Shown: piece by piece, positions 5,478 to 32,485 of the stretch | How the letters are laid out: every line of letters begins with the position of its first letter | Numbering within the stretch: the stretch's first letter is position 1 | DNA from: Tachypleus tridentatus | Lineage: Eukaryota; Arthropoda; Merostomata; Xiphosura; Limulidae | Assembly: GCF_004210375.1 (NCBI RefSeq) | Contig: NC_134833.1 | Location: 25,486,063-25,550,062 of the forward strand | Length of the DNA: 64,000 bases | Reading direction: 5' to 3' | Translations under genes and position numbers: made by a program | Notes under the pieces: model-generated | The model's database searches: none | What the model was told of the DNA's origin: nothing | The model's input: the letters and a program-made list of their open reading frames with translations, nothing else

Positions 5478-5752
5478 TGTTTGTTGTTGTTGTTTTTAAT
5501 TTCGCGCAAAACTACACGAGGACTATCTGCGCTAGCCGTCCCTAATTTAGCAGCGTAAGACTAGAGGGAAAGCAACTAGTCATCACCACCCACCGCCAAC
5601 TCTTGGGTTTCTCTCACACCAACGGATAGTGGGTAGACCGTTACTTTATAAAGCCCCACGGCTGAAAGGGTGAGCATGTTTGGTGCGACTGGGATTCGAA
5701 ACCACGATCTTCAGAGTACAAGCCGAGCCCCCTAACCACCTGGCCATGCCAG
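5478..5752 (-). mobile_element. SINE family A
   Basis: Full-length minus-strand copy running from TTTCGCGCAAAACTACACGAG through AACGGATAGTGGG to CTAACCACCTGGCCATGCC. The open frame that crosses it is a by-product. It sits head to head with the copy at 5971-6248. Confidence 0.85.
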
Positions 5753-5970
5753 AATTGCGAATAATTACGCAACAAAAGTGTTCGCTATAAACGGGTGAAC
5801 TTGTGAGCTTGGCTCTGATCTCATATATCATCGCATTGCTCCTGTGCTTATGAACCTCATATTCCAAGATATAATCTAATATCAGTCATATACTAGAAGT
5901 AGCAAGTTGACTGTTAAATGTAACTGTATAAAATTATATGTTTCTTCTGTCACTGCTATATTATTCAAAT

Positions 5971-6248
5971 GGAATGCTTCACGTATCACAGTGGTTAAGG
6001 CAGTCGACTCGTAATCCGAGGGTCGCGGGTTCGCATCCCTCTCACATCAAACATGCTCGCCCTTTCAGTCGTGGGGGCGTTATAATGTTACATTCAATCC
6101 CACTATTCGTTGGTAAAAGAGTAGTCCAAGAGTTGGCGATTGGTGATGATGACTAGCTGCCTTCCCTCTGGTCTTACACTACTAAATTAGTGAGGCGGCT
6201 AGCGCAGATAGCGCTCGTGTAGCTTTACACGAAATTCAAACCAAACCA
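5971..6248 (+). mobile_element. SINE family A
   Basis: Plus-strand copy with a decayed extreme 5' end, then GTGGTTAAGGCAGTCGACTC, GGTCGCGGGTTCGCATCCC, the usual body and the tail GAAATTCAAACCAAACC. Together with 5478-5752 it forms an inverted pair with a spacer of about 220 bp. Confidence 0.85.
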
Positions 6249-6435
6249 ACATATCACGCCCTTCTAAATTCCACATACAATGTTACATTACGATAGGTTC
6301 AAATCAAATCTCAAACACCTACAACCTACAACACATAAAGCTATTAGTGATGTGTACTATTACTATGTATTGTACTGTTGAAATATTTACATGTCATTAT
6401 AGCAGACGATACGATATCGATACTTGATATTTGAT

Positions 6436-7479
6436 ATTGATAGTTGAGAATATTGTTTCACCAGTTGTATTGGAAACACTGTACAAACCAAGAAATGTCT
6501 CATGGACGTCAAGGTTCTCATCTACGTATCGTACACATATTGCTTCCTGTTCGGCACCTGTAACATCTTGAGTGCCATCAACCATTTATGCAAAGATTTT
6601 ACTTTGCTGCACTTAGTGTGCTATGTTCATCAGTATTTGATGACTGAACATCTCCATTATTTCATCCTGAGCCTGGGGTGATGTTAATGTGGTTTTCTTT
6701 AACAAGTGGGCCGTAAACTCAGGATTTTCCTCTTCCAGGAGCTTCATTAACTGCAGGAAGTTCCGCTCGGTATCAGTATGTCCACGTAATGCTCAACCTT
6801 GACGCAGTAAGAAACATAAACTTCTGAATATTTTGTCCAGATTTCTTTTGCATTCTTTCCGCTGCTTCTTTTTTCCATCATGTAGCTGGACAGTCACTGG
6901 AGTTACATCAAGTGAACCTTCTGGAGATATAGCGAATCTGTGATGAGAGGAGGATTGGTGTTCGTTGAATTTCTGTTTTGCCTTTTTCCTGTTGCAAAAA
7001 CTGGTGGGTATGAAGGTATACTCCACTAGCCTCTCCAATTTCCCTGTAAAAAGGCCTCTATTTTCCGCCTTGGCACAATGAAAGTATATGACTTTTTGAG
7101 TCTGATTGTCGAAGTGCAGCCATGGGAACTCATCAAACCACTTGCCCTGGAAGTTGATATTTTGAGATTTTGCTTTCTGTCATGGTATTAGTTGTGCGTC
7201 TGGATGATATGGCTTTCCACACTGTATCTGTGGAGTGTCAGATTTTTCATTACTGCACAAACTTGTTTCACAACTATTTGGTGGTTCATGATGTGCAATA
7301 GTTGCACAAGCATTTTCAGACTCGTCTTCTGATGAACATGGTATTTCCTCTGTATGGCAAGTTTCTATTCCTTTGCTTTAGGTTGTTGGATTATCTGCAT
7401 CTACATTGTCACTTGTAGTACTAGTAACTGGCTTGTAGAACTGTCTGATATCGGAAAGTTTCAGACGCTTGTTTGTCAT
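6436..7479 (-). pseudogene. hAT transposase, N-terminal half (TTF zinc finger region), broken
   Basis: One minus-strand frame runs from an ATG at 7479 to the breakpoint, about 348 codons. It is interrupted by in-frame stops at 7378-7380, 7180-7182, 6790-6792 and two more just before 6585. Visible segments are the start MTNKRLKLSDIRQFYKP, the TTF-type zinc finger stretch with KWFDEFPWLHFD, a KFNEHQSSSHH segment, and the RNase H entry with CVRYVDENLDVHETFLGLY and NTTGETIFSTI. These match the order in ZMYM1-like, DUF4371-type hAT transposases (family knowledge). Multiple stops make it inactive. Its missing C-terminus is at 8951-10264 on the other strand. Confidence 0.85.
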
Positions 7480-8426
7480 GATTGGAATCTGTTTCCCAGA
7501 TGACTCAACAAGCTAAAATACAGTCTTTATTGAAAAACTCTAACGTACAACGAACGAAGATAGAACAGAATGGAAATGGGACTGAACTGTACAATGGATT
7601 TAAGTCGAACGCGCGAACCTCACAGTGACTACCGAGCCGACTGACCGCCTGGGCATCGCTGGGACAATAATGTGTGCTAGTTACAAGTAATTGCAAGTTT
7701 CTTGAAAAATACTTAAACAATCACAAATATATTATATTCTTGTTAAATCTCATCAAACACGTTGTGATATAATGTCTATAAACACGTCTATTAAATAAAA
7801 ACACCTAAACAAAAACTAGCAATACAATTCAAGTAGAGGCTTCAGGCCGTTGAAATCGTTCCTTTTGTGTTCTAATTATACAAGAAAATATAATAGTTTT
7901 TACTATATATGATAAGAGAATATATTGTTCTTTTACCATAAAGCACCAGCACTTTATTAGAGGGGGGTAATAATCTGAAATTTCATGGATTAATGAGGGC
8001 CACAAACACAGGTCTAATGAGCCCTGTTGTAAAATCGAGGCTCAGACTAAAGGGAGCGGAGGGGGGTGATGTAGGGCCCGTCTGGATCCTAGCGGCCCGA
8101 ACCTGTCGTTAACTGTACACTAAACGTACAATATGGTCTGCGGTATCGGCAGCTAAGGAGAGTAAGACGTTCGACAATAAAACCGGCTAGACATGCATAA
8201 GAACAAATGACGTAGGAAAACCGCACAATATACACATAAGATTGATGCAGCTACAACCTACAAATGGCTTGCCAGATCTAGATCACAGGAGTTTACGCTT
8301 GAGAGTAATATTTTCGAATTTCATGCTCTGTTCAGTCTGTTGTGATGAAAATTTTACTTAATCTTACACTACGTATAAGACGTAGGCAGATTCTATGATA
8401 GTGCTTGCAAACCTTGCATGTATACT

Positions 8427-8601
8427 TAGGCCTACTGACTGATACTTACGAACTATCGCTTAGATCGAAAAGCTTAGAAGCACGCCTATATTAAAGATGT
8501 ACATTTGGGCTACTGAATAAAGCCTACATCTAGGCCTAATTATGTAATTCGATTGGTAAGAACACGAGAATCACAAGAACAAACACACAATTTGTAGGCC
8601 T
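8427..8601 (-). repeat. three TAGGCCT motifs near the hAT 5' end
   Basis: TAGGCCT occurs at 8427-8433, 8531-8537 and 8595-8601, 120-290 bp inside the 5' terminus at 8719. hAT elements often carry short subterminal repeats that bind their transposase, and these are candidates. The motif is palindrome-like (AGGCCT), so orientation cannot be assigned. I saw no copies near the 3' end. Confidence 0.35.
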
Positions 8602-8706
8602 GAGATACAATAAAACAATTCAACAGACCAAACTGTAGGGGGATGATTGTATGCACCATACCCCCCACCTAAAATGAAAGGGGGGATGTATCCCCATACC
8701 CCCATG

Positions 8707-8719
8707 ATCTACGCCCCTG
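8707..8719 (-). repeat. hAT 5' terminal inverted repeat, 13 bp
   Basis: On the minus strand it reads CAGGGGCGTAGAT. The 3' end (10772-10784) reads CAGAGGCATAGAT on its minus strand, so 11 of 13 bases match. Because this end was inverted, the two repeats now lie in direct orientation. Confidence 0.85.
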
Positions 8720-8727
8720 CATGTAAG
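8720..8727 (-). repeat. hAT target-site duplication, 5' copy
   Basis: CATGTAAG on +, that is CTTACATG on the minus strand next to the 5' terminus. It equals the 8 bases after the 3' terminus (10785-10792). Eight bp is the standard hAT duplication. Confidence 0.85.
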
Positions 8728-8950
8728 GTAACATAAGAAATTAACAGTAACAAAGTATACAGACATTAACTTTTCTATTGTACTTCTCTTGTCTTCTGTC
8801 ATTTAGTTGATCAAACCTGAGAATTTGCGAAATCACTATAAAGGACCTGATTAATGTTAGTAATATATATGATAAATTACAGACAAAACCGTCTAACTTT
8901 GTAACCCTTGGTAAGACTTCTATATCTAGGTTAAATATCGCGGCATCAAC
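8728..8950 (-). other. original left flank of the hAT insertion, carried along by the inversion
   Basis: By the inversion model this is host DNA that once preceded the element. It continues outward from the 5' target duplication and ends at the right breakpoint. No gene seen. Confidence 0.6.
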
Positions 8951-10264
8951 ATCAATACTATACTTGATGTACTGACTAGACTCAATTTACCACTGTCAGG
9001 ATTAAGAGCACAAACTTATGATGGAGCCGCTAACATGAGTGGTGCGTACAGTAGATGCCAGGCAAAAATAAAAGAGAAGCAAACATCAGCTTTGTTTTTC
9101 CACTGCAGAGCACACAAGGCTAATTTAATAATGCAACATGCAGTTGAAGCTTGTGAATGTGTTCGAGATTCTATCCAGTGGGTACGTGAACTTGGTGTCT
9201 TGCTTCATAGGTCAGGCAAATACAAGACAATCTTTGAAAATATTGTATCCTCAAACAGCCACAATGGTCCAGTTAAATACATCCACCCACTGTGTCCAAC
9301 ACGCTGGTTATGCCGCCTATCTGCAATTACATGTGCTAATGATCACTACAGTGACATTGTTGATTCTTTGTCTGAATTAGCAAATGAAAAATCAGATGTA
9401 GCAGTGAAAGCACGAGGTCTGCTGAACAGATTTGACAAAGGAAAGACTGTTTTAGGATTGTTGATGGCTCAGCATCCATTAGCTGCATTAGACGAACTAA
9501 ATCGTGCATTCCAAGCAAAATCAGCAACAGTATCTGGCATGATTGAAGCATCTGCAATGACAGCTGAGCAATTGCGGGTATTGCGAACAGAGGAAAATTA
9601 CAACAAGATATTTGATGAAGCTGAGAAAAAGGTAACTTCCCTAGATCTGGTACCTACTGAACTACCACGCATTCGCAAACCGCCCAGAAGGATCACAGGT
9701 GATGGCTCAGCACACCATTCTGCAACAGCTAGAGATTACTACAGAAGCCAATATTTTGAATTTGTGGGCACAGTCATAGAACATCTGACCACTAGACTCA
9801 ATGCAGACAACAATGACTTGAGGTAATATCTGACACTTGAAAACATGATCACATCTGGCAAGATTGACAACTCGGTTATAAACTTCTATCCAGAAATCTC
9901 TGCACAACGGCTCGAGTTTCAGTTGCCCATGTTCAAAGGAACAACAAAAGCAGTATCTCTGAAAGGTGCAAAGGATGCTTACTGTAAAATGCATGAAACA
10001 AGCCAGCAGATGTTTAGTGAAGTGTTTCTTCTCATGAAAATTTTGCTTGTATGTCCAGTATCCAGCTGCGAATGTGAACACAGCTTTTCTTCATTAAGAC
10101 GGTTGAAGACGTGGTTAAGGTCAACTATGCCTCAATGCTACCTCAACCATGTGGCAGTTTGTCACACTCACAAAGATGAGGTCTACAAGATAAATATAGA
10201 AGAGCTTATGAAAGAATTCATAAACAGATCATCACAAAGGAGGTCTACGTTTGGGAACATGTAG
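8951..10264 (+). pseudogene. hAT transposase, C-terminal half (RNase H core and dimerisation domain)
   Basis: The frame is open from 8930, but coding identity starts at the breakpoint (ILDVLTRLNLPLSGLRAQ). It continues through YDGAANMSG, whose Asp codon at 9020-9022 is the second catalytic aspartate by hAT convention. Next come the C-x2-H motif in HCRAHKANL and a long helical insert. A single in-frame TAA at 9824-9826 interrupts it. The same frame resumes (YLTLENM) and ends with the dimerisation motif SSCECEHSFSSLRRLKTW before a TAG at 10262-10264. With the 5' half it would have about 780 codons, normal for ZMYM1-like elements. Apart from the one stop this half is well preserved. Confidence 0.9.
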
Positions 10265-10771
10265 ACTAGAGGACTAAATGAATCTTACTTCAATGAAAAG
10301 TATGAATAATTATGTGCTATATTGTATTGATGTGTAATTTTCAAGAGTTCGCAAAGATATTTTAATTATTTTTATCAAACAACATGAACAGTTTTTCAGT
10401 AGATATAAACTTATCAATGGTAATTACTAATTTTATTAATATTTGAAAACGTAATTCATGCAATGAAAGTTATTAGTAACCTTGTCAAGTATAATGGCCA
10501 TCTTTTATACTGTGCAGTGTGCAGAAATAAATTCATGTGGCAGTTAATTTGTGACACACTTGTCTTTATTCTATTAACATTTTGAAAACTGTTCACAACA
10601 CCTCACTTATACAAACCTACATGGAAACCTTGAAGTATCGTGGCAACAAGATTACTCTGTGACTGCATTTTCACAGCTTTCAGGTTCACGTAATCAGATA
10701 TTACCAATTTGCAAATTGAATAGTCCACATAAGTGGTTGCAAAAATCATCCCCCCCCATCGGGTTTAAAAT

Positions 10772-10784
10772 ATCTATGCCTCTG
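10772..10784 (+). repeat. hAT 3' terminal inverted repeat, 13 bp
   Basis: ATCTATGCCTCTG on +, the reverse complement of CAGAGGCATAGAT. It is preceded by a C-rich stretch (10749-10758) that mirrors the G-rich subterminal part of the other end. Confidence 0.85.
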
Positions 10785-10792
10785 CTTACATG
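10785..10792 (+). repeat. hAT target-site duplication, 3' copy
   Basis: CTTACATG, identical to the minus-strand sequence flanking the 5' end at 8720-8727. Confidence 0.85.
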
Positions 10793-11700: not shown

Positions 11701-12380
11701 TCGTTAAAAGTGAAAGTGTGTGAAAAACTTGACTACTCATGTATCAATGAAACTTGACCTTATCTAAGTAAAATGAGTCAGAGCACTATTACGTTTCTAG
11801 CAAATCAACGACTGCTGAAAAAACCTGAATTATTAGACTTAAACATACTTTTACTTATAAATAGTGCCACACTTGTAATTATAAACACACTTTTACTTGT
11901 AATTAGTGTTACATTTGTGATTCTAAATATATTTTACTTGTAATTAATGCTACACTGATTATTCTAAATATACTTTTACTTGTAATTAATCCTACACTAA
12001 TGAATCTAAATATACTTTTACTTATAATTAGTGTTACATTGATAATTCTAAATATACTTTTATTTGTAATTAGTGCTACACTTGAGATTTAAATATACTT
12101 TTACTTATTATTAGTGCTAACCTTGAGATTCTAAAAATACTTTTATTTGTAATTAGTGCTACACTTGTGAATCTAAACATATTTTTACTAGTAGTTAGTG
12201 CTACGCTTGTGATTCTAAAAATACTTTTGCTTGTACTTTGTACTTAGTGCCACACTTATAATTCTAAATGTACTTTTACTTGTAATTAGCGTTACATTTG
12301 TGATTCTAAACATATTTTCTTTTAGTTAGTGCTACACTTATAATTCTAAATATACATTTACTTTTAATTAGTGCTACACT

Positions 12381-14340
12381 TGTGATTCTAAAAATACTTT
12401 TACTTGTAATTAGTGCTACACTTCTAAATCTAAACATATTTTACTTGTAATTACAGCTACACTTACGATTCTAAATATAATTCTATTTGTAAATAGTGCT
12501 ACATTTATTATTCTAAATATAATTTTACTTGTAATTAGTGCTACACTTGTGATTCTAAAAATATTTTTATTCTAATTAATGCTACACTTATAATTCTAAA
12601 TGTAATTTTACTTGTAAGTAGTGCTACACTTGTGATTCTAAAAATGCTTTTACTTGTAATAAGTGCTACACTTATGATTCTATAAAATACTTTTACTTCT
12701 AATTAGTGATACAGTTGTGATTCTAAATATACTTTTACTTGTAATTAGTGCTACATTTGTAAATCTAAACATATTTTTACTTGTAATTACAGCGACACTT
12801 ATGATTCTAAACATACTTCTATGTGTAAGTAGTGCTACATTTATATTCTAAATAGAATTTTACTTCTAATTACTACTACACTTATGATTCTAAAGATAAT
12901 TTTACTTCTAAGTAGTGCTACACCTGTGATTCTAAAAATGCTTTTACATGTAATTAGTGCTAGAGTTGTGATTCTAAATATACTTTTACTTATATTTATT
13001 GCTACCCTTGAGATTATAAAAATAATTTACTTGCAATTAGTGCTAAACTTGTAAATCTAAACATATTTTCACTTGTAATTACAGCTACACTTATGATTCT
13101 AAATATAATTCTATTTGTAAGTAGTGGTACATTTACTCTTCTAAATATACTTTTATTTGTAATTAGTGCTACATTTACTCTTCTAAATATGCTTTTATTT
13201 GTAATTAGTGCTGCACTTGTGATTCTAAATATGCTTTTATTTGTAATTAGTGCTACACTCGTGATTCTCAAAATATTTTTAATTCTAATTACTGCTTCAC
13301 TTATGATTCTAAATATAATTTTACTTGTAAGTAGTGCTACACTTATAATTATAAAAATACTTTTACTTGTAATTAGTGCTACATTTGTGATTCTAAATAT
13401 ACTTTTACTTATATTTACTGCTACCCTTGAAATTCTAAAAATACCTTTACTAGTAATTGGTGCTACACTTGTAAATCAAAAGATATTTTAACTTGTAATT
13501 GCTGCTACACTTCTGATTCTTAATATAATTTTACTTGTAAGTAGTACTACACTTGTGATTCTAAATGTCCTTTTACTTGTAATTAGTGTTACATTTGTGT
13601 TTCTAAACATATTTTAATTAGTGCTACACTTATGATTCTAAATATACATTTACTTGTGATTAGTGCTGCACTTGTGATTCTAAATATACTTTTACTTGTA
13701 ATTATTGCTACATTTGTTATTCTAAAAGTAGTTTTACTTGTAATTAATGTCACATTTGTGATTCTGAACATATTTCAATTCTAATTACTGCTACACTTAT
13801 GATTCTAAATATAATTTTACTTGTAATTAGCGCTGCACTTATGAATCTAAACATATTTTACTTATAATTAGTGCTCCACTTGTGATTGTAAATATTCTTT
13901 CCTTTTAATTAGTTCTACACTTGTGATTCTAAAAATACTTTTACTTGTAATTAGTGCTACGCTTGTGATTCTAAATATACTTTGACTTGTAATTAGTGCT
14001 ACACTTGTGATTTAAATATACTTTTACTTATATTTATTACTACCCTTGAGATTCTAAAAATATTTCTAATTCTAATTACTGCTACACTTATGATTCTAAA
14101 TATAATTTTACTTGTAAGTAGTGCTACACTTATGATTCCAAAAATAGTTTTACTTGTAATTAGTGCTACATTTGTGATTCTAAATATACTTTTACTTATA
14201 TTTACTGCTACCCTTGAAATTCTAAAAATACCTTTACTAGTAATTAGCGCTACACTTGTGAATCGAAACATATTTTTACTACTAATTAGTGCTACGCTTG
14301 TGATTATAAAAATAATTTTATTTGTAATTAGTTCTACACT
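12381..14340. repeat. 1,960-bp higher-order unit, copy 1
   Basis: This block recurs at an offset of exactly 1,960 bp with only scattered single-base differences, whereas neighbouring 42-bp monomers within it are far more diverged. Upstream of about 12379 the match falls to ordinary monomer similarity. Confidence 0.88.
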
Positions 14341-16300
14341 TGTGATTCTAAAAATACTTTTACTTGTAATTAGTGCTACACTTCTAAATCTAAACATATT
14401 TTACTTGTAATTACAGCTACAATTACGATTCTAAATATAATTCTATTTGTAAATAGTGCTACATTTATTATTCTAAATATAATTTTACTTGTAATTAGTG
14501 CTACACTTGTGATTCTAAAAATATTTTTATTCTAATTAATGCTACACTTATAATTCTAAATGTAATTTTACTTGTAAGTAGTGCTACACTTGTGATTCTA
14601 AAAATGCTTTTACTTGTAATAAGTGCTACACTTATGATTCTATAAAATACTTTTACTTCTAATTAGTGATACAGTTGTGATTCTAAATATACTTTTACTT
14701 GTAATTAGTGCTACATTTGTAAATCTAAACATATTTTTACTTGTAATTACAGCGACACTTATGATTCTAAACATACTTCTATGTGTAAGTAGTGCTACAT
14801 TTATATTCTAAATAGAATTTTACTTCTAATTACTACTACACTTATGATTCTAAAGATAATTTTACTTCTAAGTAGTGCTACACTTGTGATTCTAAAAATG
14901 CTTTTACATGTAATTAGTGATAGAGTTGTGATTCTAAATATACTTTTACTTATATTTATTGCTACCCTTGAGATTATAAAAATAATTTACTTGCAATTAG
15001 TGCTAAACTTGTAAATCTAAACATATTTTCACTTGTAATTACAGCTACACTTATGATTCTAAATATAATTCTATTTGTAAGTAGTGGTACATTTACTCTT
15101 CTAAATATACTTTTATTTGTAATTAGTGCTACATTTACTCTTCTAAATATGCTTTTATTTGTAATTAGTGCTGCACTTGTGATTCTAAATATGCTTTTAT
15201 TTGTAATTAGTGCTACACTCGTGATTCTCAAAATATTTTTAATTCTAATTACTGCTTCACTTATGATTCTAAATATAATTTTACTTGTAAGTAGTGCTAC
15301 ACTTATAATTATAAAAATACTTTTACTTGTAATTAGTGCTACATTTGTGATTCTAAATATACTTTTACTTATATTTACTGCTACCCTTGAAATTCTAAAA
15401 ATACCTTTACTAGTAATTGGTGCTACACTTGTAAATCAAAAGATATTTTAACTTGTAATTGCTGCTACACTTCTGATTCTTAATATAATTTTACTTGTAA
15501 GTAGTACTACACTTGTCATTCTAAATGTCCTTTTACTTGTAATTAGTGTTACATTTGTGTTTCTAAACATATTTTAATTAGTGCTACACTTATGATTCTA
15601 AATATACATTTACTTGTGATTAGTGCTGCACTTGTGATTCTAAATATACTTTTACTTGTAATTATTGCTACATTTGTTATTCTAAAAGTAGTTTTACTTG
15701 TAATTAATGTCACATTTGTGATTCTGAACATATTTCAATTCTAATTACTGCTACACTTATGATTCTAAATATAATTTTACTTGTAATTAGCGCTGCACTT
15801 ATGAATCTAAACATATTTTACTTATAATTAGTGCTCCACTTGTGATTGTAAATATTCTTTCCTTTTAATTAGTTCTACACTTGTGATTCTAAAAATACTT
15901 TTACTTGTAATTAGTGCTACGCTTGTGATTCTAAATATACTTTGACTTGTAATTAGTGCTACACTTGTGATTTAAATATACTTTTACTTATATTTATTAC
16001 TACCCTTGAGATTCTAAAAATATTTCTAATTCTAATAACTGCTACACTTATGATTCTAAATATAATTTTACTTGTAAGTAGTGCTACACTTATGATTCCA
16101 AAAATAGTTTTACTTGTAATTAGTGCTATATTTGTGATTCTAAATATACTTTTACTTATATTTACTGCTACCCTTGAAATTCTAAAAATACCTTTACTAG
16201 TAATTAGCGCTACACTTGTGAATCGAAACATATTTTTACTACTAATTAGTGCTACGCTTGTGATTATAAAAATACTTTTATTTGTAATTAGTGCTACACT
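14341..16300. repeat. 1,960-bp higher-order unit, copy 2
   Basis: Near-identical copy of 12381-14340. Encoded by-product frames at 13014-13271 and 14974-15231 are the same in both copies. Identity breaks just after about 16300, where the sequence reads TGTAAATCTAAACAT instead of TGTGATTCTAAAAAT. Confidence 0.88.
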
Positions 16301-19300
16301 TGTAAATCTAAACATATTTTTACTTGTAATTACAGCTACACTTATGATTCTAAATATAATTTTATTTGTAATGTAAGTAGTGCTACATTTATTATACTAA
16401 ATATATTTTTACTTGTACTTAGTGCTACGCTTGTGATTCTAAAAATACTTTTACTTGTAATTAGTTCTACACTTATGATTCTAAATATACTTTTACTTGT
16501 AATTAGTGCTACACTTGTGATTCTTAAAATATTTTAATTCTAATTACTGCTACACTTATGATTCTAAATATAATTTTACTTCTAAGTAGTGCTACACTTG
16601 TGATTCTAAAAATGCTTTTACTTGTATTTAGTGCTACACTTGTGCTTCTAAAAATACTTTTACTTGTAATTAATGCTACACTCGTGATTCTAAAAATATT
16701 TTTAATTCTAATTACTGCTACACTTATGATACTAAATATAATTTTACTTCTAAGTAGTCCTGCACTTATGATTCTAAAAATGTTTTACTTGTAATGAGTG
16801 CTAGACTTATGATTCTAAAAATACTTTTAGTTGTAATTAGTGCTAGAGTTGTGATTCTAAATATAATTCTATTTGTAAGTAGTGCTACGTTGCCTATTCT
16901 AAATATACTTTTACTTGTAATTAGTGCAACACTTGTGATTCTCAAAATATTTTTAATTCTAATTACTGCTACACTTATGATTCTAAATATAATTTTACTT
17001 GTAAGTAGTGCTACACTTCTGATTCTAAATATACTTTTACTTGTAATTAGTGCTACACTTTGATTATAAAAATATTTAAATTCTAATTACTGCTGCACTT
17101 ATGATTCTAAATATAATTTTACTTGTAATTAGTGTTACATTTGTGATTCTAAAAATATTTTAATTAGTGCTGCACTTATGATTCTAAATATACATTTACT
17201 TGTGATTAGTGCTACACTTGTGATTCTAAATATACTTTTATTTGTAATTACTTCTACACTTTTGATTCTAAAAATACTTTTAGTTGTAATTAATGCTACA
17301 TTTGTGATTCTGAACATATTTCAATTCTAATTACTGCTACACTTATGATTTTAAATATAATTTTACTTGTAATTAGCGCTACACTTATGAATCAAAACAT
17401 ATTTTACTTATAATTAGTGCTCCACTTGTGATTGTAAATATTCTTTTCTTTTAATTAGTGCTACACTTGTGATTCTAAAAATACTTTATATGTAATTAGT
17501 GCGACGCTTGTGATTCTAAATATACTTTTACTTGTAATTAGTGCAATAGTTGTGATTCTAAATATACTTTTACTTATAGTTAGTTCTACCCTTGAGATTA
17601 TAAAAATAATTTACTTGCAATTACTGCTACACTTGTGAATCTAAACACATTTTTACTACTACTTAGTGCTACACTTATTGTTCTAAATGTACTTTTACTT
17701 GTAGTTAGTGTTACATTTGTGATTCTAAACATATTTACTTGTAATTAGTGCTACACTTATAATTCTAAATATACATTTACTTGTAATTAGCGCTACACTT
17801 ATGAATCTAAACATATTTTACTTATAATTAGTGTTCCACTTGTGATTGTAAATATTCTTTCCTTTTAATTAGTGCTACATTTGTGATTCTAAACATATTT
17901 TAATTCTAATAACTGCTACACTTATGATTCTAAATATAATTGTACTTGTAATTAGTGCTATATTTATGATTCTATATATGCTTTTACTTATAATTAGTGT
18001 TACCCTTGAGATTCCAAAAATACTTTTACTTGTAATTAGTGCTACACTTGTAAATCTAAACATATTTTTACTTGTAATTACAGCTACACTTATGATTCTA
18101 AATATAATTCTATGTGTAAGTAGTACTACATCTATTATTATAAATATACTTTTACTGTAATTAGTGCTACGCTTGCTATTCTAAAAATACTTTTACTTGT
18201 AATTAATGCTACACTCGTGATTCTAAAAATATATTAATTCTAATTACTGCTACCATTATGATTCTAAATGTACTTTTATTTGTAATTAGTGTTACATTTG
18301 GGATTCTAAAAATATTTTTAATTCTAATTCCTGCTACACTTATGATTCTAAATATAATTTTACTTGTAAGTAGTGCTACACTTCTGATTCTAAAAATGAT
18401 TTTATTTGTAATGACTACTACACCTTTAATTCTAAAAATACTTTAACTTGTAATTAGTGCTACACTTGTGATGTAAATATACTTTTACTTATATTTAGTG
18501 CTACCCTTGAGATTATAAAAATACTTTCACTTGCAATTAGTGCTACACTTGTAAATCTAAACATATTTTTACTTGTAATTACAGCTACACTTATGATTTT
18601 AAAAATACTTTTACCTGTAATCAGTTCTACATTTGTTATTCTAAATATACTTTTACTTATAATTAATGCTACCCTGGAGATTTTAAAAATACTTTTATTT
18701 GTAATTAGTACTACACTTGTGAATCTAAACATATTTTTACAAGTAATTAGTGCTACGATTGTGATTATAAAAATACTTTTACTTGTAATTAGTGCTAAAT
18801 TATGATTCTAAATATAATTCTATTTGTAAGTAGTGCTACATTTATTATTCTAAATATACTTTTACTTCTAATTAATGCTACACTTGTGATTCTCAAAATA
18901 TTCTTAATTTTAATTATTGCTACACTTATGATTCTAAAGATATTTTAACTTGTAATTACTGCTACACTTCTGATTCTAAATATAATTTTACTTGTAAGTA
19001 GTACTACACTTTGGATTCTAAATGTCCTTTTACTTGTAATTAGTGTTACATTTGTGTTTCTAAACATATTTTAATTAGTGCTACACTTATGATTATAAAT
19101 ATACATTTACTTGTGATTAGTGCTGCACTTGTGATTCTAAATATACATTTACTTGTGATTAGTGCTGCACTTGTGATTCTAAATATACTCTTACTTGTAA
19201 TTAGTGCTACATTTGTTATTCTAAAAATACTTTTACTTGTAATTAATGCTACATTTGTGATTTTGAACATATTTCAGTTCTAATTACTACTACACTTATG

Positions 19301-20213
19301 ATTCTAAATACAATTTTACTTGTAATTAGCGCTGCACTTATGAATCTAAACATATTTTACTTATAATTAGTGCTCCACTTGTGATTGTAAATATTCTTTC
19401 CATTTAATTAGTTCTACACTTGTGATTCTAAAAATACTTTTACTTGTAATTAGTGCAACTCTTGAGATTCTAAATTTATTTTTAATTTTAATTACTGCTG
19501 CACTTGTGATTCTAAATATAATTTTACTTGTAATTTGTGCTACATTTGTTATTCTATATGTGCTTTTACTTGTAATTACTGCTACATTTACGATTCTAAA
19601 TATACTTTTGCTTGTAATTAATGTTACATTTGTGATTCTAAACATATTTTGACTGGTAATTAGTTCTACACTTATGGTTCTAAATATAATTTTACTTGTA
19701 AGTAGTGCTACATTTATTTTTCTAAATATACTTTTACTTGTAATCAGTGCAACACTTGTGATTCTAAAAATACTTTTATTGTAATTAGTGCTACACTTGT
19801 GAATCTAAAAATATTTTTAATTCTAATTACTGCTACACTTATGATTCTAAAAATATTTTAATTCTAATTACTGCTACACTTATGATTCTAAATATTATTT
19901 TACTTGTAAGTAGTGCTACACTTATGATTCTAAATATAATTTTACTTGTAAGTAGTGCTACACTTGTTATTCTAAATGTACTTTTACTTGTAATTAGTGC
20001 TACATTTATTTTTCTAAATATACTTTTACTTGTAATTAATGCTACACTCGTGATTCTAAAAATATTTTTAATTGTAATTACTACTACACTTATGATTCGA
20101 AATGTAATTTTACTTTAAGTAGTGCTACACTTGTGATTCTATAAAATACTTTTACTTGTAAGGGGTGCCACATTTGTGATTCTAAACATATTTTACTTAT
20201 AATTAGTACTACA

Positions 20214-20480
20214 CTTCGAATAAAAGTTCGTGTTTGTCGTTTTCCAATAAAAGTTCATGTGCTTGTTTCCTTCCAATAAAAGTACGTTTGTTTATTACCT
20301 TCAAATAAAAGTACCTCTGTATGTTATACTCCAATAAAAATACGTGTGTTTGTTATCTTCCAATAAAAGTACGTGTATTTCTTATCTTCTAATAAAAGCA
20401 TGCGTAATTGCTATCTTCCAATAAAAGTACGTGTGTTTGTTATCTTCCAATGAAAGTATGTGTGTTTGTTATCTTCCAAT
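20214..20480. repeat. about 29-bp minisatellite, each unit with AATAAA
   Basis: About nine units of the form CTTCCAATAAAAGTACGTG plus TGTTTGTTAT, directly abutting the 42-bp satellite. All but the last one or two units contain AATAAA on the plus strand, the canonical polyadenylation hexamer. Confidence 0.88.
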
Positions 20481-21360
20481 TTCCAAAACCCTCATCATTG
20501 CAAACTTGCACGTTTTCACAGGGTTTCAACACGATCGATTAAAAATTTGAAACTGACAAAAGCAATAAAAAACGAAACGAATGACATATTATGTAGAAAT
20601 AACGTTAGACTATGTAAAAATATAGAATGGAACCGTGTCTCAGATTAGTTTTTATTGTCTTATTATCATAAAGTAATGACAAAACGTCCTCAATCTATTT
20701 GCATATTAAAATATTCTAAAACTAGTAATAAAGAGACCCCTGTCAACTGGGTAAAATATAGTATTAAGTGAATTTTATTTATTCATTTATAAGAAGAAAC
20801 TTTTGACTTTTTTGTCACGTTTTTTCTTTCTTTTCCATTTCGTATTTAAAATAAAAGATAATAAAATGTCAACATTGAATAATATTTGATTCGATGAATG
20901 CCTAAATTATCAGGTTTGTACTCTTAAAGAGTTAAGCTGATAAATGTATTTTTGTCACTTCGTGTTAACATTCTTCATGAACGTATGTTTAGAATGCTAA
21001 ATGTTTTATACTAACGACATAAATTCTTTTAATAACACTGTCAGTCTGTTTTATTTACTCGTGACCGACTGCAGTCCAGTGGTTAACAAGTCGGCCCATG
21101 ATCTGAGGTTTCATGTCCCATATTTTGTGGTTATAGGTAATAAGCTATCAGAATAGTGTAAGTTCCAACTGATCGGTCTAACACAATAGCCCAAGTGTTG
21201 ATGATGGGTTGCAACGACAAGCTGTCTGCCATGTAGTCTATCATTTAGTTATCTAACATTTAGTTCTATAATACGTCAGTTTGAGTTTCCATACCAGCTG
21301 TTGGTATAGCACAGGTGGTCTATTTGTGCTTAATAATATTTACAAAAATAGTTGACAGAT
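20481..21360. other. no gene recognised
   Basis: AT-rich DNA. A weak tRNA-like stretch at about 21055-21130 (AGTCCAGTGGTTAACAAG) may be a decayed SINE head. The open frame at 20460-20648 starts inside the minisatellite and is not convincing. Confidence 0.4.
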
Positions 21361-21636
21361 TGTTTGTTTTTGTTGAATTTCGCACTAAGCTACTCGAGGG
21401 TTATCTGTGCTAGCCGTCCCTAATTTAAAAGTGTAAGACTAGAGGGAAGGCAGCTAGTCATCACCACCCACCGCCAACTTTTGGGTTACTCTTGTACCAA
21501 CAAATAGAAGGATTGACCGTCACACAAAAACGCCCCCACGGCTGAAACGGCGAGCATGTTTGGCGCGACGGGGATGCGAACCCACGCCCCTCAGATTACG
21601 ACTCGCACGCCTTAACACGCTTGGCCATGCCGGGCC
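21361..21636 (-). mobile_element. SINE family A
   Basis: Full-length minus-strand copy from GAATTTCGCACTAAGCTACTC to CTTGGCCATGCCGGGCC. It keeps the body blocks AACGCCCCCACGGCTGAAA and GGATGCGAACCCACG. Confidence 0.88.
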
Positions 21637-22170
21637 AAGTTAACATAATTTCAATATATCCTGTAATGAAAAATAAATCATTATATTTTGTTTTTATATT
21701 TTGTCGAAGATCTAAGTGAATAATTTTCTTTTACATAGCAAATATTGTCACAGTTTTCACTATGTTTTATAAAGATTTCACACTTTATATGTTTGTAACT
21801 TTCAACTTTGGTTTACAGCATCAGATACAAAAATTAAGTAAGTATGAATTTATGTTGTAGATAACAGGAGGTTTTTATCTCAGACACCTTTCACTTCATA
21901 GTTAGTACTTTAAGATAAAAAAGTAAAACATCTTCATTGTTAATATAGTATAAATGAACGTATTTATTATAAGTAAACTGTGAACAAATGTTCTTATTGG
22001 TTAATTAAAAGACTACTAAATATCGCTATTTTCGTTTAGGTGGAATAAATGAACATTGGTTCCTGCTATTGGTTGCAACCACTTAACATTAATATTTGTT
22101 ATCGGCTAGAGCTAGTGTAGTGATGTTTATGTTTCTATTCAACGTCATTTTTTGAAAGTCGTTTAGAATC

Positions 22171-22196
22171 TAGGAAGTGAAATACATTCACCGAGT
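22171..22196 (+). repeat. 26-bp exact repeat, copy 1
   Basis: Begins TAGGAAGTGAAATACATTCA and ends CCGAGT. Identical to 23543-23568, and the preceding 30 bp also align loosely (TTTGAAAGTCGTTTAGAATC against TTGGAATTTCGTTCAGACTG). May be part of a dispersed repeat or a duplicated regulatory segment. Confidence 0.7.
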
Positions 22197-22622
22197 CAAT
22201 ATTTGCTATTGGCCTAAGCTAGTTAGTGCACAAGTACTTATGTGTTATTTGCCACAACTACACAGTATAGCTAGAGTATATTAGTTAAAACTACTAAATA
22301 TGTCAATAGAAAAATACTTTTATAAATCAGACGTTTTTAACAACTGACTATGCATTGAAGATTGTCATAGTTTCACAACGTGAAAAACAAGTACATTTTC
22401 AAGTTAATAATAGAAAGATCTTTAGTTTCTTGAAAATGACTTGTAAAAAAGTAAAATCAGTGCAAATGTATCATACATTTTCTAACATTTATGATAAAAA
22501 ATAAAACATATTACATTATCCTAAGTTTTCGTATCGCCAATGTTTATTGCGTTTAGCGTAACACTATGAAAATAATACTTATATCTGTATTTTATCTCTT
22601 TCAATTATACAATAAGCATCTC

Positions 22623-23030
22623 TTAAGGTATTACTTACCTCTGTTTTGTAAGTTTATCATCTCTGTATTTCTTAGCTTTGTTTAATAAGATTATCATCTC
22701 AGTATTTCTTACCTCTGTTTAATAAGTTTATCATCTCTGGATTTCTTACCTCTGTTTAATAAGTTTATCATCTCTATATTTCTTAGCTTTGTTCAATAAG
22801 ATTATCATAACTGTATTTCTTATCTCTGTTTAATAAGTTTATCATCTCTGTATTTCTTGCCTCTGTTTTGTAATTTTATCTCATTCTTACCTCTGTTTTG
22901 TAAGTTTATCGTATCGTCTCTATTTCTTGACAGTGCTTCATAAGTTTATGATCTCTCTGCTTCTTACCTCTCTTTCATAAGTTTATCTTCTTCTTACCTC
23001 TGTTTCATAAGTTTATAAGTTTTCTTACGC
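22623..23030. repeat. 37-bp minisatellite, about ten units
   Basis: Units carry CTTACCTCTGTTTAATAAG and TTTATCATCTCTGTATTT with a 37-bp step (for example 22681 to 22718). The 3' units shorten and lose the middle. Confidence 0.85.
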
Positions 23031-25470
23031 ATGTATTTTTGTAGTATAAATGTGTTCTATTAAATTAAAATTTCTCGATATCAGGTTTTGGGTTTCTCCT
23101 TATCACCACTCATCGCTACTTGTGCCTTAAAATATAAACGTTTTTAAAATCGCTTAAATTACTTGGTAATTTTTGCGGTTCTCGTCGTCTGTCGTGGGCA
23201 TTGAGCTCGGTAAATTTTTTACGCGTGAAAACTACCGCTTACCATCTTTCCATCTACTGGTGGTGTGTATGAAATTTAACGTGAATGCGTGCATTTTAAA
23301 GTAGCCTTATTGACACCTCAAAAAATTAGCAATACCACAGAATCTACATTAGGCTTAGGATTTTATCACCTTTAGAAAGGCAATCATCATAAGCCCTCTG
23401 CTATTTCTTTACGTTAAAAGTATTTCACTAAATGTCACTGTTTCTAAGATTTACAGCATAATGCACAATATGAACGATGGGTAGTAGCATTTTTTTAAAG
23501 TTGTTTATATTCTACGCCACTTTTGGAATTTCGTTCAGACTGTAGGAAGTGAAATACATTCACCGAGTTATTAGTAGCGGGGTGAATTGAATATTGTGTT
23601 TTTTCTCTTTCTCTCTCTGATTTATTGCACTGTGTTTTAGTTTCTTCGATCACCCTGACACAACATCACGCAATAACCTACTTAGCTCTGCAGGTGTGTT
23701 TTTTTCATTCTTTACAGTGAATGATAAATATTTAAAAAAAAAAAAAACAGCGCCATCTCGTTATCATAGTTTTTGATATTTTTATCGTAATGTAACACTA
23801 ATTTTGGGGGCTTGTTTGAATTTGTTGAAATCAATACCATTTGGTCTTTATTGCGTTAAATTTCGGACATCTACACTAGTTCACATATCAAAAAAAATAA
23901 ATAATTGATTGTTTGTACAACTCTGTTTATTTTTATTTTTTTGCAGGTCTGCACGAAAGAGCTATAAATTCACACCAAGATATTGTTTTTTATCATCCAC
24001 TCTAACACAGAGGATCAACTATACTTACAGTACCATTTGTTGTTGTTTGTTTTTTGTTGTTTTTTTGTTCTTTAAAACATTAGATGGAAACGAATTGAAA
24101 TAAGTTATTTTTTCTTGAAGAACTCAAAGATTTCGTTGCTGTCTGTGATGTATTTGACTAAGGAAAATTATTGGCGTACGAATCCATTCGTGTGTTGTCT
24201 TATGTTGTTTATGGTATCGTTTGGATGAAACAAAATTGTTAGAATCACGAATCCATTTGATTTTAGAGGAGAAAAAACGTTTAGTTCGGATAATTATCTA
24301 TTCCTGTGCAGTTTTCCATTACTGTCATTTTTACGTCTTAAACAATGGATACGTGAGGCTTAAAAATAATTAAAATTGCCAATACTTTTAAAGATGCTTC
24401 TCTGTTCCAGTCACAATACGCGTCACTCGACTAGTCACGCTAATACAGCTAATATTTAGTACAAAATATAAGTTTTACATTAAAAACTTTTCTACGAGTC
24501 TCGTTACACCAATTGTCATTTTAATCTTGTATGTTACATTATTAAAACTTCCGAAAATCTCGGTTTGTGTACTTATACTAACACGATACTACTACGCGTA
24601 GCCACAACCTTCAACCATATTTTTATGTTTTAGTTTCAACCTCACGAACATGATTAGAGACAGACAATTATGATACAAAATAATCATTCGCAGTATTTGC
24701 AGGAATCACTTTGTAGGTAAAATAAAGTTAACGTAATATTAGATATGAATTTGTATCTAAAGCAAGCGAAAACTCTCCAAAGATTCTTTGGTTTGTTTGT
24801 TTTCTTTCATTTTAGTCTAATATTTATCATAACGATAAAAAAAAAAACTCTCGCTCCATAATTCTTTAGTTTAGTTGTTTTTCTACTCTTGTGTTAAATC
24901 TCTGATTTATTTGAAAATCTAAACTGTGGCTCATAACAAGGATATGAGTGCATATTTTGAACAATCAATGAAGTTTTTGCGTTCATTGGTGAAAAGAAAA
25001 CAACATGCTACGTGCTAATGTCGTCGTACACTGACTAAGACGCAGGAACCTCAACATCTGGTTAGCTGATAGGTTTATTAGATATACTTCGCATATGTTC
25101 TTCTCTCAGGCTCAATCTTTCGTTATACTTTGTACAACATTGTTTGAAAAGTACATTTGTTTAGATAAATTTTGTTTCTCGTCATTGAGTGTGAATAAAT
25201 AACTATTGTTACTTCAGTTTCAATATTGCATGATATCTCTCTCTATATTATGAAATTCAATTACAGCTTGAACACTGTTTTCGATTTGATTTTTTCTAAG
25301 TATGGTTTATCCCTTGAAACAGCACTATTTATGCTATAAATAATATATATTTTACACTGTTCCAAATTACCATTCCTTGCAGGTAACGAGTCCAATCGAT
25401 GTACAGTTATATCTGTTCCTCAGCAGTTACAGTACGGAAACCCCAAACATTATTTTGGATTCATAGATTA
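23031..25470. other. no gene recognised; second copy of a 26-bp repeat
   Basis: Holds the second copy (23543-23568) of the 26-bp exact repeat. Otherwise AT-rich with poly-T and poly-A runs. The open frame at 23909-24103 is low-complexity and unsupported. Confidence 0.4.
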
Positions 25471-25746
25471 TTGTTTGTTTGTTTTGAATTTCGCAAAAAG
25501 CTACACAAGAGTTATCTGCGCTAGCCGCTCCTAATTTAGTAGTGTAAGAATAGAGAAAAAGTAGCTAGTCATCATCACCCACCGCCAACTCTTGAACTGC
25601 TCTTTTACCAACGAATAATGGGATTGACCGTCACATTATAACGCTATCATGACTGAAAGAGACATCATGTGTGGTGTGACGGGGACTCGAACCCGCGACC
25701 CTCAGCTTACAACTCGAGTGACTAAACCACCTGGCCATGTCGAGCC
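25471..25746 (-). mobile_element. SINE family A
   Basis: Minus-strand copy ending in a head that reads ACCACCTGGCCATGTCGAGCC. Only about 16 bp separate it from an oppositely oriented copy. Confidence 0.88.
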
Positions 25747-25762
25747 TGATAAAGAAGGAATC

Positions 25763-26026
25763 ATTACTCAGGTGGTTAAGGCATTCGACTCGTAAGCTGA
25801 GGGTCGCGGGTTCGAATCTCGGTCGCACCAAAATGCTCGCCCTTTTAGCCGTGGGGGCGTTACAATGTGACAGTCAATCTAACTATTCTTTGGTGATAGA
25901 GTAACCGAAGAGTTGACAGTGGTTAGTGATGAATAGTTGCCTTCCCTCTAGTCTTATACTGCTAAATTAGAGACAGCTAGCGCAAATAGCCCTCGTGTAG
26001 CTTTGCGCGAAATTCAAAACCAAATC
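25763..26026 (+). mobile_element. SINE family A
   Basis: Plus-strand copy whose first bases are replaced (begins near CAGGTGGTTAAGGCATTCG), with GGGTCGCGGGTTCGAATC and the tail TTTGCGCGAAATTCAAAACC. Forms a tight head-to-head inverted pair with 25471-25746. Confidence 0.88.
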
Positions 26027-26089
26027 AATCCTTGCCTGTTCGTTGTTTTTCAAAGCAGCTTACTTTAAACTGAACTGAGAACTTAAGTA

Positions 26090-26207
26090 CAGCTGTAAGT
26101 CTTCGGAGTTACAACGCTAAAATCAGGGGTTCGATTCCCCTCGGTGGGCTCAGCAGATAGCCCCATGTAGCTTTGCTATAATAAAAATACACAAATACAC
26201 ACACGCG
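26090..26207 (+). mobile_element. SINE family B
   Basis: Contains GAGTTACAACGCTAAAATCA, the perfect B-box region GGGGTTCGATTCCCCTCGG and a CA-rich tail (ACACAAATACACACACGCG). Confidence 0.85.
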
Positions 26208-27654
26208 TTCTAACCGAAAAAAAAAAAATGTAAAGTCTCAGAAGTTTAAACCCACTTAGTATCCACTGAAATAAACTTGTTTGATTTGATTTCAGGAATT
26301 GTTTAATATTTTGTAATTGCGTATGTTAACTTGGCTATTTAAGAATCTTCGAAACAACAAAGTTTAAGTCTATGAAAATATGTGACTTAAATACTTGATG
26401 TACTTCCGCAAGATCCCCAAAAGTGTTCTGTTTCAAGAGTAAATAAAACCAAAATTAAGTGTAACAAATATTTTTATTTCTTGCTTTTGAAGTTCATTGG
26501 TATGCTGTGTTGTAGCCTATAGGCTGCATATTTCTTCTCGTGATTTATTGTATGCGCACATTTTATTGACGTCATTCTTGTGTCTACTGAATGACTGACA
26601 GAAAAAAAAACACCAATGTATAGTGTTGCGAATGGCCATCCTTCGGGGAAATAAATGTAATAAAGGGTCACATATATGTACTGCGAGGGACAAATATAAA
26701 TTAGTGTGTTAAAATGTATAAAAAGCAAGTAAAACTGTCATTATAAAATATGCCTACATATTCTTTATCGTTATTTTGTCTGTTGTTGTTTTCTAACATT
26801 TATAGATTGTATCTCAAAGTCAAAATGCATTAAAATATACACAAGTTTCCCCGCAAATAGGATAACCTTCCATATAAAAATTTATATTGATATATTTTTC
26901 TTTTAAGTAAAGGATGAGGTTCCTGTGTTATTTAGGAAAAAACGGAGGCAGTGATAGACTTCAGATATCAAGGAATCTGAAGTGTAACAAATTCAGATTG
27001 TTATTACAAATCAAGTTTTGATATCAAAACTTCAGATATCAATTTCACATACGTTTCACAAAACGTAAACCTACAAAGTCGTAACTCTTTTGTTGTTCTT
27101 GTTTATCTTGTTGCAAGACTGTAGCATGACCTACACATGCTCTACCGTTTGCCGGAATCGAAGCCCAAATTCTAACATTACAATTCTTTAAGCCAAAAAT
27201 GGATTTAAACTCTAATATTTAACTACAAAGTTAAGCCTTGAAACACACTAACATTTTAAAATTGCCAAATGCAAATCCAGCTGACATAATTCATCAAAAT
27301 CATGTTGAGGGTCAGGCAAAAGAACTATTTGCACCAGTGGTCGGGGAGACATGTTATTCTACTGTTCCAGGCCCAATCTGATCTAAATTCGCCCCTGCAT
27401 TTCATCACTAGAAGTTCACCTTTAGACTGCATTATTTCGTTGAAAATGTTAGTCAAAACTTACAACTTTACATGAGTAATTCTCTTACTACATATTACTC
27501 TTATTCATCACATCATACAAATAATGAATTAAATAGAGCGATCTAACAATCAACGTAAGGATTTACTTCACCAGTTGGATATCTAATATCTCATTAAGCT
27601 TAAATATTTGTTTTCTTTTTTCTCGCCAGGGATGTAATTAAAAAGAAAATCTCT
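26208..27654. other. no gene recognised
   Basis: AT-rich sequence. The minus-strand frame at 26474-26728 has no recognisable motif. A decayed tRNA-like piece may lie around 27130-27200, too weak to call. Confidence 0.4.
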
Positions 27655-28783: not shown

Positions 28784-29156
28784 TGGTCTACAGTTTCTCC
28801 TGTTGAAGGTTCGTCTGCACATCTCAGGTCAGCAAACAAACAAAAAACACTATTCACGTTACTAACTATTACTAGCTTGATAAGTTTCAATACTCATTAT
28901 TCTAACTTAGTACTAGCTTGATAAGTTTCAATACTTATTATTCTAACTTAGTACTAGCTTGATAGGTTTCAATACTCATTATTCTAACTTAGTACTAGCT
29001 TGATAAGTTTCAATACTCATTATTCTAACTTAGTACTAGCTTGATAAGTTTCAATACTCATTATTCTAACTTAGTACTAGCTTGATAAGTTCTGATACTC
29101 ATTATTCTAACTTAGTACTAGCTTGATAAGTTTCAATACTCATTATTCTAACTTAG

Positions 29157-30304
29157 TAATAGCTTGATAAGTTTCAATACTCATTCTTCTAACTTAGTAC
29201 TAGCTTGATAAGTTTCAATACTCATTATTCTAACTTAGTACTAGCTTGATAAGTTTCAATAGTCATTATTCTAACTTAGTACTATCTTGCTAAGTTTCAA
29301 TACTCATTATTCTAACTTAGTACTAGCTTGATAAGTTCTGATACTCATTATTCTAACTTAGTACTAGCTTGATAAGTTCTGATACTTATTATTCTAACTT
29401 AGTACTAGCTTGATAAGTTCTGATACTTATTATTCTAACTTAGTACTAGCTTGATAAGTTCTGATACTCATTATTCTAACTTAGTACTAGCTTGATAAGT
29501 TCTGATACTTATTATTCTAACTTAGTACTAGCTTGATAAGTTCTAATACTCATTATTCTAACTTAGTACTAGCTTGATAAGTTCTGATACTTATTATTCT
29601 AACTTAGTACTAGCTTGATAAGTTCTGATACTTATTATTCTAACTTAGTACTAGCTTGATAAGTTCTAATACTCATTATTCTAACTTAGTACTAGCTTGA
29701 TAAGTTTCAATACTCATTATTCTAACTTAGTAATAGCTTGATAAGTTTCAATACTCATTCTTCTAACTTAGTACTAGCTTGATAAGTTTCAATACTCATT
29801 ATTCTAACTTAGTACTAGCTTGATAAGTTTCAATAGTCATTATTCTAACTTAGTACTATCTTGCTAAGTTTCAATACTCATTATTCTAACTTAGTACTAG
29901 CTTGATAAGTTCTGATACTCATTATTCTAACTTAGTACTAGCTTGATAAGTTCTGATACTTATTATTCTAACTTAGTACTAGCTTGATAAGTTCTGATAC
30001 TTATTATTCTAACTTAGTACTAGCTTGATAAGTTCTGATACTCATTATTCTAACTTAGTACTAGCTTGATAAGTTCTGATACTTATTATTCTAACTTAGT
30101 ACTAGCTTGATAAGTTCTAATACTCATTATTCTAACTTAGTACTAGCTTGATAAGTTCTGATACTTATTATTCTAACTTAGTACTAGCTTGATAAGTTCT
30201 AATACTCATTATTCTAACTTAGTACTAGCTCGATAAGTTCTGATACTTATTATTCTAACTTAGTACTAGCTTGATAAGTTCTGATACTTATTATTCTAAC
30301 TTAG
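29157..30304. repeat. 574-bp (14-monomer) higher-order duplication in the 41-bp satellite
   Basis: The rare monomer TAATAGC...CATTCTTC recurs at 29157 and 29731. The ordered variants after it (TCATT with CAATAGT, then TACTATCTTGCTAAG, then TCTGATA and TCTAATA types) agree for about eleven monomers before diverging. Confidence 0.8.
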
Positions 30305-32485
30305 TACTAGCTTGATAAGTTCTGATACTTATTATTCTAACTTAGTACTAGCTTGATAAGTTCTGATACTTATTATTCTAACTTAGTACTAGCTTGATAA
30401 GTTCTAATACTCATTATTCTAACTTAGTACTAGCTTGATAAGTTCTGATACTTATTATTCTAACTTAGCACTAGCTTGATAAGTTTCAATACTCATTATT
30501 CTAACTTAGTACTAGCTTGATAAGTTCTGATACTTATTATTCTAACTTAGTACTAGCTTGATAAGTTCTGATACTTATTATTCTAACTTAGTACTAGCTT
30601 GATAAGTTCTGATACTTATTATTCTAACTTAGTACTAGCTTGATAAGTTCTGATACTCATTATTCTAACTTAGTACTAGCTTGATAAGTTCTGATACTTA
30701 TTATTCTAACTTAGTACTAGCTTGATAAGTTTCAATACTCATTCTTCTAACTTAGTACTAGCTTGATAAGTTCTGATACTCATTATTCTAACTTAGTACT
30801 AGCTTGATAAGTTCTGATACTCATTATTCTAACTTAGTACTAGCTTGATAAGTTTCAATACTCATTATTCTAACTTAGTACTAGCTTGATAAGTTCCAAT
30901 ACTCATTATTCTAACTTAGTACTAGCTTGATAAGTTCTGATACTTATTATTCTAACTTAGTACTAGCTTGATAAGTTCTGATACTTATTATTCTAACTTA
31001 GTACTAGCTTGATAAGTTCTGATACTTATTATTCTAACTTAGTACTAGCTTGATAAGTTCTGATACTTATTATTCTAACTTAGTACTAGCTTGATAAGTT
31101 CTGATACTCATTATTCTAACTTAGTAATAGCTTGATAAGTTTCAATACTCATTATTCTAACTTAGTACTAGCTTGATAAGTTTCAATACTCATTATTCTA
31201 ACTTAGTACTAGCTTGATGAGTTCTAATACTCGTTATTCTAACTTAGTACTAGCTTGATAAGTTTCAATACTCATTATTCTAACTTAGTACTAGCTTGAT
31301 AAGTTCCAATACTCATTATTCTAACTTAGTACTAGCTTGATAAGTTTCAATACTCATTATTCTAACTTAGTACTAGCTTGATAAGTTTCAATACTCATTA
31401 TTCTAACTTTGTACTAGCTTGATGAGTTCTAATACTCATTATTCTAACTTAGTACTAGCTTGATAAGTTCTGATACTCATTATTCTAACTTAGTACTAGC
31501 TTGATAAGTTCTAAAACTCATTATTCTAACTTAGTACTAGCTTGATAAGTTCCAATACTCATTATTCTAACTTAGTACTAGCTTGATAAGTTCTAAAACT
31601 CATTATTCTAACTTAGTACTAGCTTGATAAGTTTCAATACTCATTATTCTAACTTAGTACTAGCTTGATAAGTTTCAATACTCATTATTCTAACTTAGTA
31701 CTAGCTTGATAAGTTTCAATACTCATTATTCTAACTTAGTACTAGCTTGATAAGTTCCAATACTCATTATTCTAACTTAGTACTAGCTTGATGAGTTCTA
31801 ATACTCATTATTCTAACTTAGTACTAGCTTGATAAGTTCTGATACTCATTATTCTAACTTAGTACTAGCTTGATAAGTTCTGATACTCATTATTCTAACT
31901 TAGTACTAGCTTGATAAGTTTCAATACTCATTATTCTAACTTAGTACTAGCTTGATGAGTTCTAATACTCATTATTCTAACTTAGTACTAGCTTGATAAG
32001 TTCTGATACTCATTATTCTAACTTAGTACTAGCTTGATAAGTTCTGATACTCATTATTCTAACTTAGTACTAGCTTGATAAGTTCTGATACTTATTATTC
32101 TAACTTAGTACTAGCTTGATAAGTTCTGATACTCATTATTCTAACTTAGTACTAGCTTGATAAGTTTCAATACTCATTATTCTAACTTAGTACTAGCTTG
32201 ATAAGTTTCAATACTCATTATTCTAACTTAGTACTAGCTTGATAAGTTTCAATACTCATTATTCTAACTTAGTACTAGCTTGATGAGTTCCAATACTCAT
32301 TATTCTAACTTAGTACTAGCTTGATAAGTTCTGATACTCATTATTCTAACTTAGTACTAGCTTGATGAGTTCTAATACTCATTATTCTAACTTAGTACTA
32401 GCTTGATAAGTTTCAATACTCATTATTCTAACTTAGTACTAGCTTGATGAGTTTCAATACTTATTATTCTAACTTAGTACTAGCT

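Follow-up and report, generated by a model that had tools for sequence, protein, structure and literature searches.

A hAT transposon copy in the horseshoe crab Tachypleus tridentatus split by a 2.5-kb inversion that probably followed its insertion

In the window analyzed here, which is a 64,000-nucleotide stretch of the Tachypleus tridentatus genome (C9:25486063-25550062), we found a hAT transposon whose two halves lie on opposite strands. We consider it very probable that this copy arose through insertion, a subsequent inversion by end joining and not by the transposase, and a later inverted duplication of the block around it. What we observed directly were the flipped order of the halves, an element junction that is restored exactly, the continuity of the empty site, and a second copy. 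According to the proposed history, a transposon of about 4.1 kb, with a transposase made up of DUF4371 and hAT dimerisation domains, would have inserted itself within a dispersed repeat of greater age, creating the 8-bp duplication CTTACATG. Later, double-strand breaks would have fallen at two sites, within the transposase gene and about 237 bp beyond the element's left end, and the intervening 2.5 kb would have been put back in reverse. The rejoining would have been ordinary end joining at, or close to, an ACTAT/ATAGT inverted repeat of 5 bp. Afterwards, an inverted duplicate of a block no shorter than 30 kb, flipped copy included, would have been placed on the same contig at a distance of about 1.27 Mb.

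To place the arrangement among its relatives, the genome (2.17 Gb in 205 contigs) was searched, and the best 35 of 3400 first-look candidates, taken as 35 places, were scored; the copy number is therefore a lower bound. Among these best 35, the halves are colinear in 33 (there matching the window on opposite strands), and flipped only in the window copy and at C9:26763165-26767741. For the strand tally of the 33 places, we took the N-half row adjoining the C-half row at each place and left out further N-half pieces. As 33 other places are colinear, colinearity is the normal state of the element, and it is the window copy that has been rearranged. The inversion put forward by the original prediction is thus real, with halves flipped against 33/33 other scored places, though the breakpoint mark offered alongside it did not survive. 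Moreover, the N half on the minus strand, the C half on the plus strand, the terminal repeats in direct orientation, and the 8-bp duplication reverse-complemented at one end are all as predicted (Table 1). Two other copies of the hAT element, at C6:84354973-84355021 and C10:46589068-46589195, also have short segments inverted in place, of about 49 and 128 bases, respectively.

Table 1. Features of the split hAT copy and its flanks, in window positions.
Feature	Position	Strand	Observation
Outer left flank, not inverted	6237..6439	+	Matched elsewhere only by the second arm; in some copies, the older repeat runs on into its end
Left inversion junction, ATTG + ATAGT	6436..6444	+	ATAGT is element sequence; ATTG absent there in the intact element
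N-terminal (5') half of hAT element, inverted	6440..8719	-	Opposite strand to C half in 33 other places
5' terminal inverted repeat, ATCTACGCCCCTG on plus strand, CAGGGGCGTAGAT on minus strand	8707..8719	-	Similar end in intact copies
Target-site duplication, inverted, CATGTAAG on plus strand	8720..8727	-	Single-target spacing in empty site of L053, L054, and L055
Original left flank, inverted along; part of older dispersed repeat	8728..8956	-	Relatives ~74% identical; right flank next in 17/20
Right inversion junction, CAAT + ACTAT	8953..8961	+	ACTAT is element sequence, at both junctions
C-terminal (3') half of hAT element with Dimer_Tnp_hAT	8957..10784	+	PF05699 match, ORFs
3' terminal inverted repeat, ATCTATGCCTCTG	10772..10784	+	
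Target-site duplication, CTTACATG	10785..10792	+	

When ACTAT is counted once, the window copy is about 4103 bases long, which agrees with the predicted size of about 4.1 kb and falls inside the 3970-4139 bases of the 13 copies, out of 16 examined, in which both terminal ends were found (≤6 errors allowed). In these same 13 copies, exact 8-bp target duplications occur in 10, with seven of eight letters agreeing in L023 and, at the ends as called, no match in L020 or L021. As for the window copy, CTTACATG flanks both of its ends (reverse-complemented at one), and its short terminal inverted repeats are CAGGGGCGTAGAT and CAGAGGCATAGAT. Here, the likeness to the hAT superfamily (DUF4371/Dimer_Tnp_hAT transposases) lies in the 8-bp target duplications, the CAGGGGCGTAGA-type ends, and a relative (L027) with both domains in one open frame, whereas the window copy differs in being split and dead. 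In fact, the single open frame of L027 has 572 codons and matches DUF4371 with 79.4 bits and Dimer_Tnp_hAT with 26.9 bits, the latter domain also scoring 27.3 bits in L014 (cut-off 21.4). The window itself gave a Dimer_Tnp_hAT (PF05699) match at 9827-10261 (1.3e-05, 25.4 bits; cut-off 21.4), and a DUF4371 match at 6445-6585 whose 16.8 bits are below the cut-off of 32.1. Judged by position against L027, the breakpoint lies inside DUF4371. A Pfam search at E 0.1 found no match in window 8957-9823 alone or in 7180-7377, and weak matches to Phospholip_A2_2 and Fungal_lectin_2 elsewhere were taken as chance. Since there is an in-frame stop in the C half at 9824-9826, the window copy would be broken even without the inversion.

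We then compared the two junctions with the 16 fetched intact copies, 15 of which could be read directly at the breakpoint place (the probe missed L017). These 15 have CTC(G/A)ACTATACTTG and no CAAT there, and across the joint they read CTC(G/A)ACTATACTTGATG, some of them differing by single letters. This speaks against the inverted microhomology ATTGAT/ATCAAT of the original prediction, which consists of flank (ATTG) and, on the left, two letters of ATAGT. Junction fit was judged by local alignments of 120 bases, with up to eight end bases allowed to stay unaligned. Turning back 6442-8950, the interval once thought to undo the inversion exactly, leaves a nine-base excess against 16/16 intact copies, and the reading frame is kept across that join because nine is a multiple of three. 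Turning back either 6445-8956 or 6440-8961 is gap-free against 16/16, and so an exact undoing holds for the element with these two intervals and not with 6442-8950. ACTAT is found at both window junctions (ATAGT at 6440-6444 and ACTAT at 8957-8961) and once at that place in the intact element. Given the gap-free fit in 16/16, the breakpoints are at 6440-6444 and 8957-8961. The same nine letters, ATACTTGAT, recur close to both breakpoints (6420-6428 and 8960-8968). A templated insert was weighed as an explanation, and dropped because the older repeat carries a similar stretch there.

The carried flank, about 237 bp rather than the predicted 220 (8720-8956, target duplication included), is a member of an older dispersed repeat, and the ancestor of the flank is represented by its many relatives, which are only about 74% identical. 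Searching with this inner flank gave 41 matches, these being the two duplicated arms described below and 39 others at 72-81% identity. Of the 20 copies of the older repeat that were fetched, 17 have the right flank after the carried flank, both on one strand; of the exceptions, L057 and L059 have no right-flank match, and L056 has a weak one on the other strand. Moreover, the spacing between the flanks equals exactly one target copy in L053, L054, and L055, and is within one base of this in L052. This demonstrates that the flank is inverted, with no recourse to the transposon. The intact copies and the empty site in the older repeat family lend independent support to a post-insertion inversion of about 2.5 kb that carried flanking DNA along, as was predicted.

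On the other side, 8 of 20 copies have sequence upstream of the repeat that is similar to the outer flank (p<0.05), compared with 1 of 20 for a control sequence, and the other 12 give no significant match. In seven of the eight significant copies, the match covers about 6391-6416, adjoining the breakpoint, and that in L055 lies away from it. As read from the alignment, the joined flanks have about 18 extra bases, TTGAT-rich, relative to the older repeat, and small additions at the flank breakpoint are therefore possible. An uninverted allele was found neither among the outer-flank matches (two, both arms) nor among the 41 inner-flank matches. Slightly farther left, window 5490-6244 holds two inverted repeats (arms within 5490-5739 and 5991-6244, 78-86% complementary), a pair that we take to resemble tRNA-derived SINEs.

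The second full-length match (C9:26763165-26767741, minus strand, 96%) is the sole other copy with the same split, an arrangement whose recurrence the original prediction would have counted against itself, as a sign of older origin, but it lies inside a duplicated block that includes the flanks. The outer flank was found in the genome only in the window and in this second arm, where the carried flank is 97% and the right flank 99% identical. The two arms can be aligned at least over window -9999 to 11365 and 20216 to 26971, on either side of a satellite array. In the second arm, the target duplication and junctions are the same save for single-letter changes, one of them in ATAGT. The same junctions in a second copy inside an inverted segmental duplication argue that the inversion is probably the older of the two events on this contig. 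The region contains satellite arrays at window 11840-20216 and 28862-36275, with units of 42 and 41 bases, respectively. Window 61268-64000 is also found at C9:25580678-25583428 (96%) and C9:26705858-26708628 (95%), so the region has further direct and inverted duplicates; this also suggests that the duplicated region is larger than the stretches aligned above.

An element with so many copies, in a region rich in repeats and satellite arrays, does invite the suspicion of an assembly error, which we nonetheless regard as very improbable. With the same junctions present at two loci, a local error would need to have happened twice, and these loci share not just the junctions, but also the flank and the target duplication, with the compared flanks about 0.3-1.3% apart. 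The arm parts that were read are free of runs of N. The two arms may, however, be misplaced haplotypes, in which case they would count as one locus. An even smaller chance is given to inversion by the hAT transposase through alternative or reversed-ends transposition. Maize hAT elements invert DNA in this way, as described in PMC8225341, yet a breakpoint at the transposon end with a new target duplication was not found here. Instead, the breakpoints (6440-6444 and 8957-8961) fall in the middle of the element and in the flank, with the two ends of the element still beside the one original target duplication.

From these observations we infer a break and rejoining, as well as the order of events, and two forms of the joining share nearly all of the remaining weight, each with slightly less than an even chance. 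The one would be a simple inversion by recombination or microhomology-mediated joining at a 5-bp inverted repeat, with ACTAT in the element and ATAGT already in the flank. ATAGT/ACTAT is indeed at both junctions, and cutting there restores the element junction exactly. The 20 repeat copies are matched equally well by a joined flank that includes ATAGT and by one that lacks it (summed scores 5081 and 5079), though these copies are too diverged to place ATAGT in the ancestral flank. In the other form, staggered breaks at both sites with fill-in would have left each junction with inverted duplicates of ACTAT, taken from the element, and of ATTG, taken from the flank. This accords with the presence of ATTG and ACTAT at each junction, and PMC3355041 takes inverted duplications at the breakpoints of inversions to indicate staggered breaks with end joining. 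The duplications here are, however, tiny next to the 1-kb and 4.3-kb cases described there, and that of the flank depends on repeat copies that do not settle it. Of three joined-flank forms compared with the 20 old copies, the one with ATAGT scored best in 10, that with a single ATTG and no ATAGT in nine, and the third in one. As the old copies do not settle whether ATAGT was in the flank, microhomology joining and staggered breaks are equally probable.

The arms have diverged unevenly, and it is this part that could merit more study. The hAT copy differs by 3.2% between the arms, compared with 0.3-1.3% in the compared flanks, satellite edges left out. Differences in the element number 76/2271 in the N half and 54/1827 in the C half (limits one base off those in Table 1), against 30/6407, 2/228, and 25/1959 in the near left, carried, and right flanks. 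Farther out, there are 29/9969 on the left and 38/6464 in window 20500-26999 (summed bins), with window 20500-22600 being 99% alike in the second arm. Left out of the flank sums were bin 20216-20499 beside the satellite (41/278), bins 13001-14500 inside it (13-17%, on a questionable alignment), and the remainder of the satellite. Among the compared parts outside the satellite, the rise in divergence coincides with the element and changes at its edges.

Changes from C to T or G to A make up 64 of the 128 polarised arm-specific changes, and CpG decay was rejected as the main cause, with transitions at CpG accounting for only 14/128. A generally high hAT mutation rate is likewise without support, as a younger duplicated pair lacks the excess in the element. 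This pair (C2:54737500-54747400 and C2:75938060-75947960, about 21 Mb apart and 99.4% identical) includes a hAT copy, and has 6/4999 differences in the element bins and 3/3889 in the flank bins when the first 1000 repetitive bases (32/999) are left out. Another two copies, L071 and L072, are 92.8% identical over 3084 columns, like ordinary family members. Scanning 200-base overlapping windows from 79 starts against 16 sampled relatives, we found a relative closer than the partner arm in 21/79 for the window arm and 19/79 for the second arm, these being raw counts without a chance expectation; the closest relatives have two or three mismatches at best. The changes are without clear clustering by arm (60 runs vs 66.4 expected), and derived letters are also found in other copies for 29/61 and 24/67, the 16 sampled copies themselves giving 23-52%. 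It is conceivable on these data, and in our judgment rather unlikely, that once the duplication had taken place the window hAT copy was rewritten piecewise through ectopic gene conversion, with its many dispersed relatives as donors. A local mutation effect or a polishing error in a high-copy repeat may also be the cause.

Taken as a whole, the locus represents ordinary genome wear that is unusually legible, and does not change views on hAT elements or inversions. Being a clean small inversion that can be ordered relative to an insertion and a segmental duplication, it could serve as an example for teaching or calibration. In PMC3355041, the Drosophila inversions 2h and 2q are attributed to breakage and end joining, with inverted duplications at their breakpoints. 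They resemble the present case in having a short inverted duplication or homology at both breakpoints and no recombination between transposon copies. They differ in being fixed chromosomal inversions whose duplications span about 1 to 7 kb, rather than a 2.5-kb inversion with duplications of a few bases. The Ac/fAc inversions made by alternative transposition, as PMC8225341 presents them, are similar in that a hAT element sits at an inversion. In contrast, their breakpoint is at the element end with new 8-bp duplications at the junctions, and that in the window is inside the element and lacks these. The kind of event is one already known, here a probable end-joining inversion that runs through a dead hAT copy and was subsequently duplicated.
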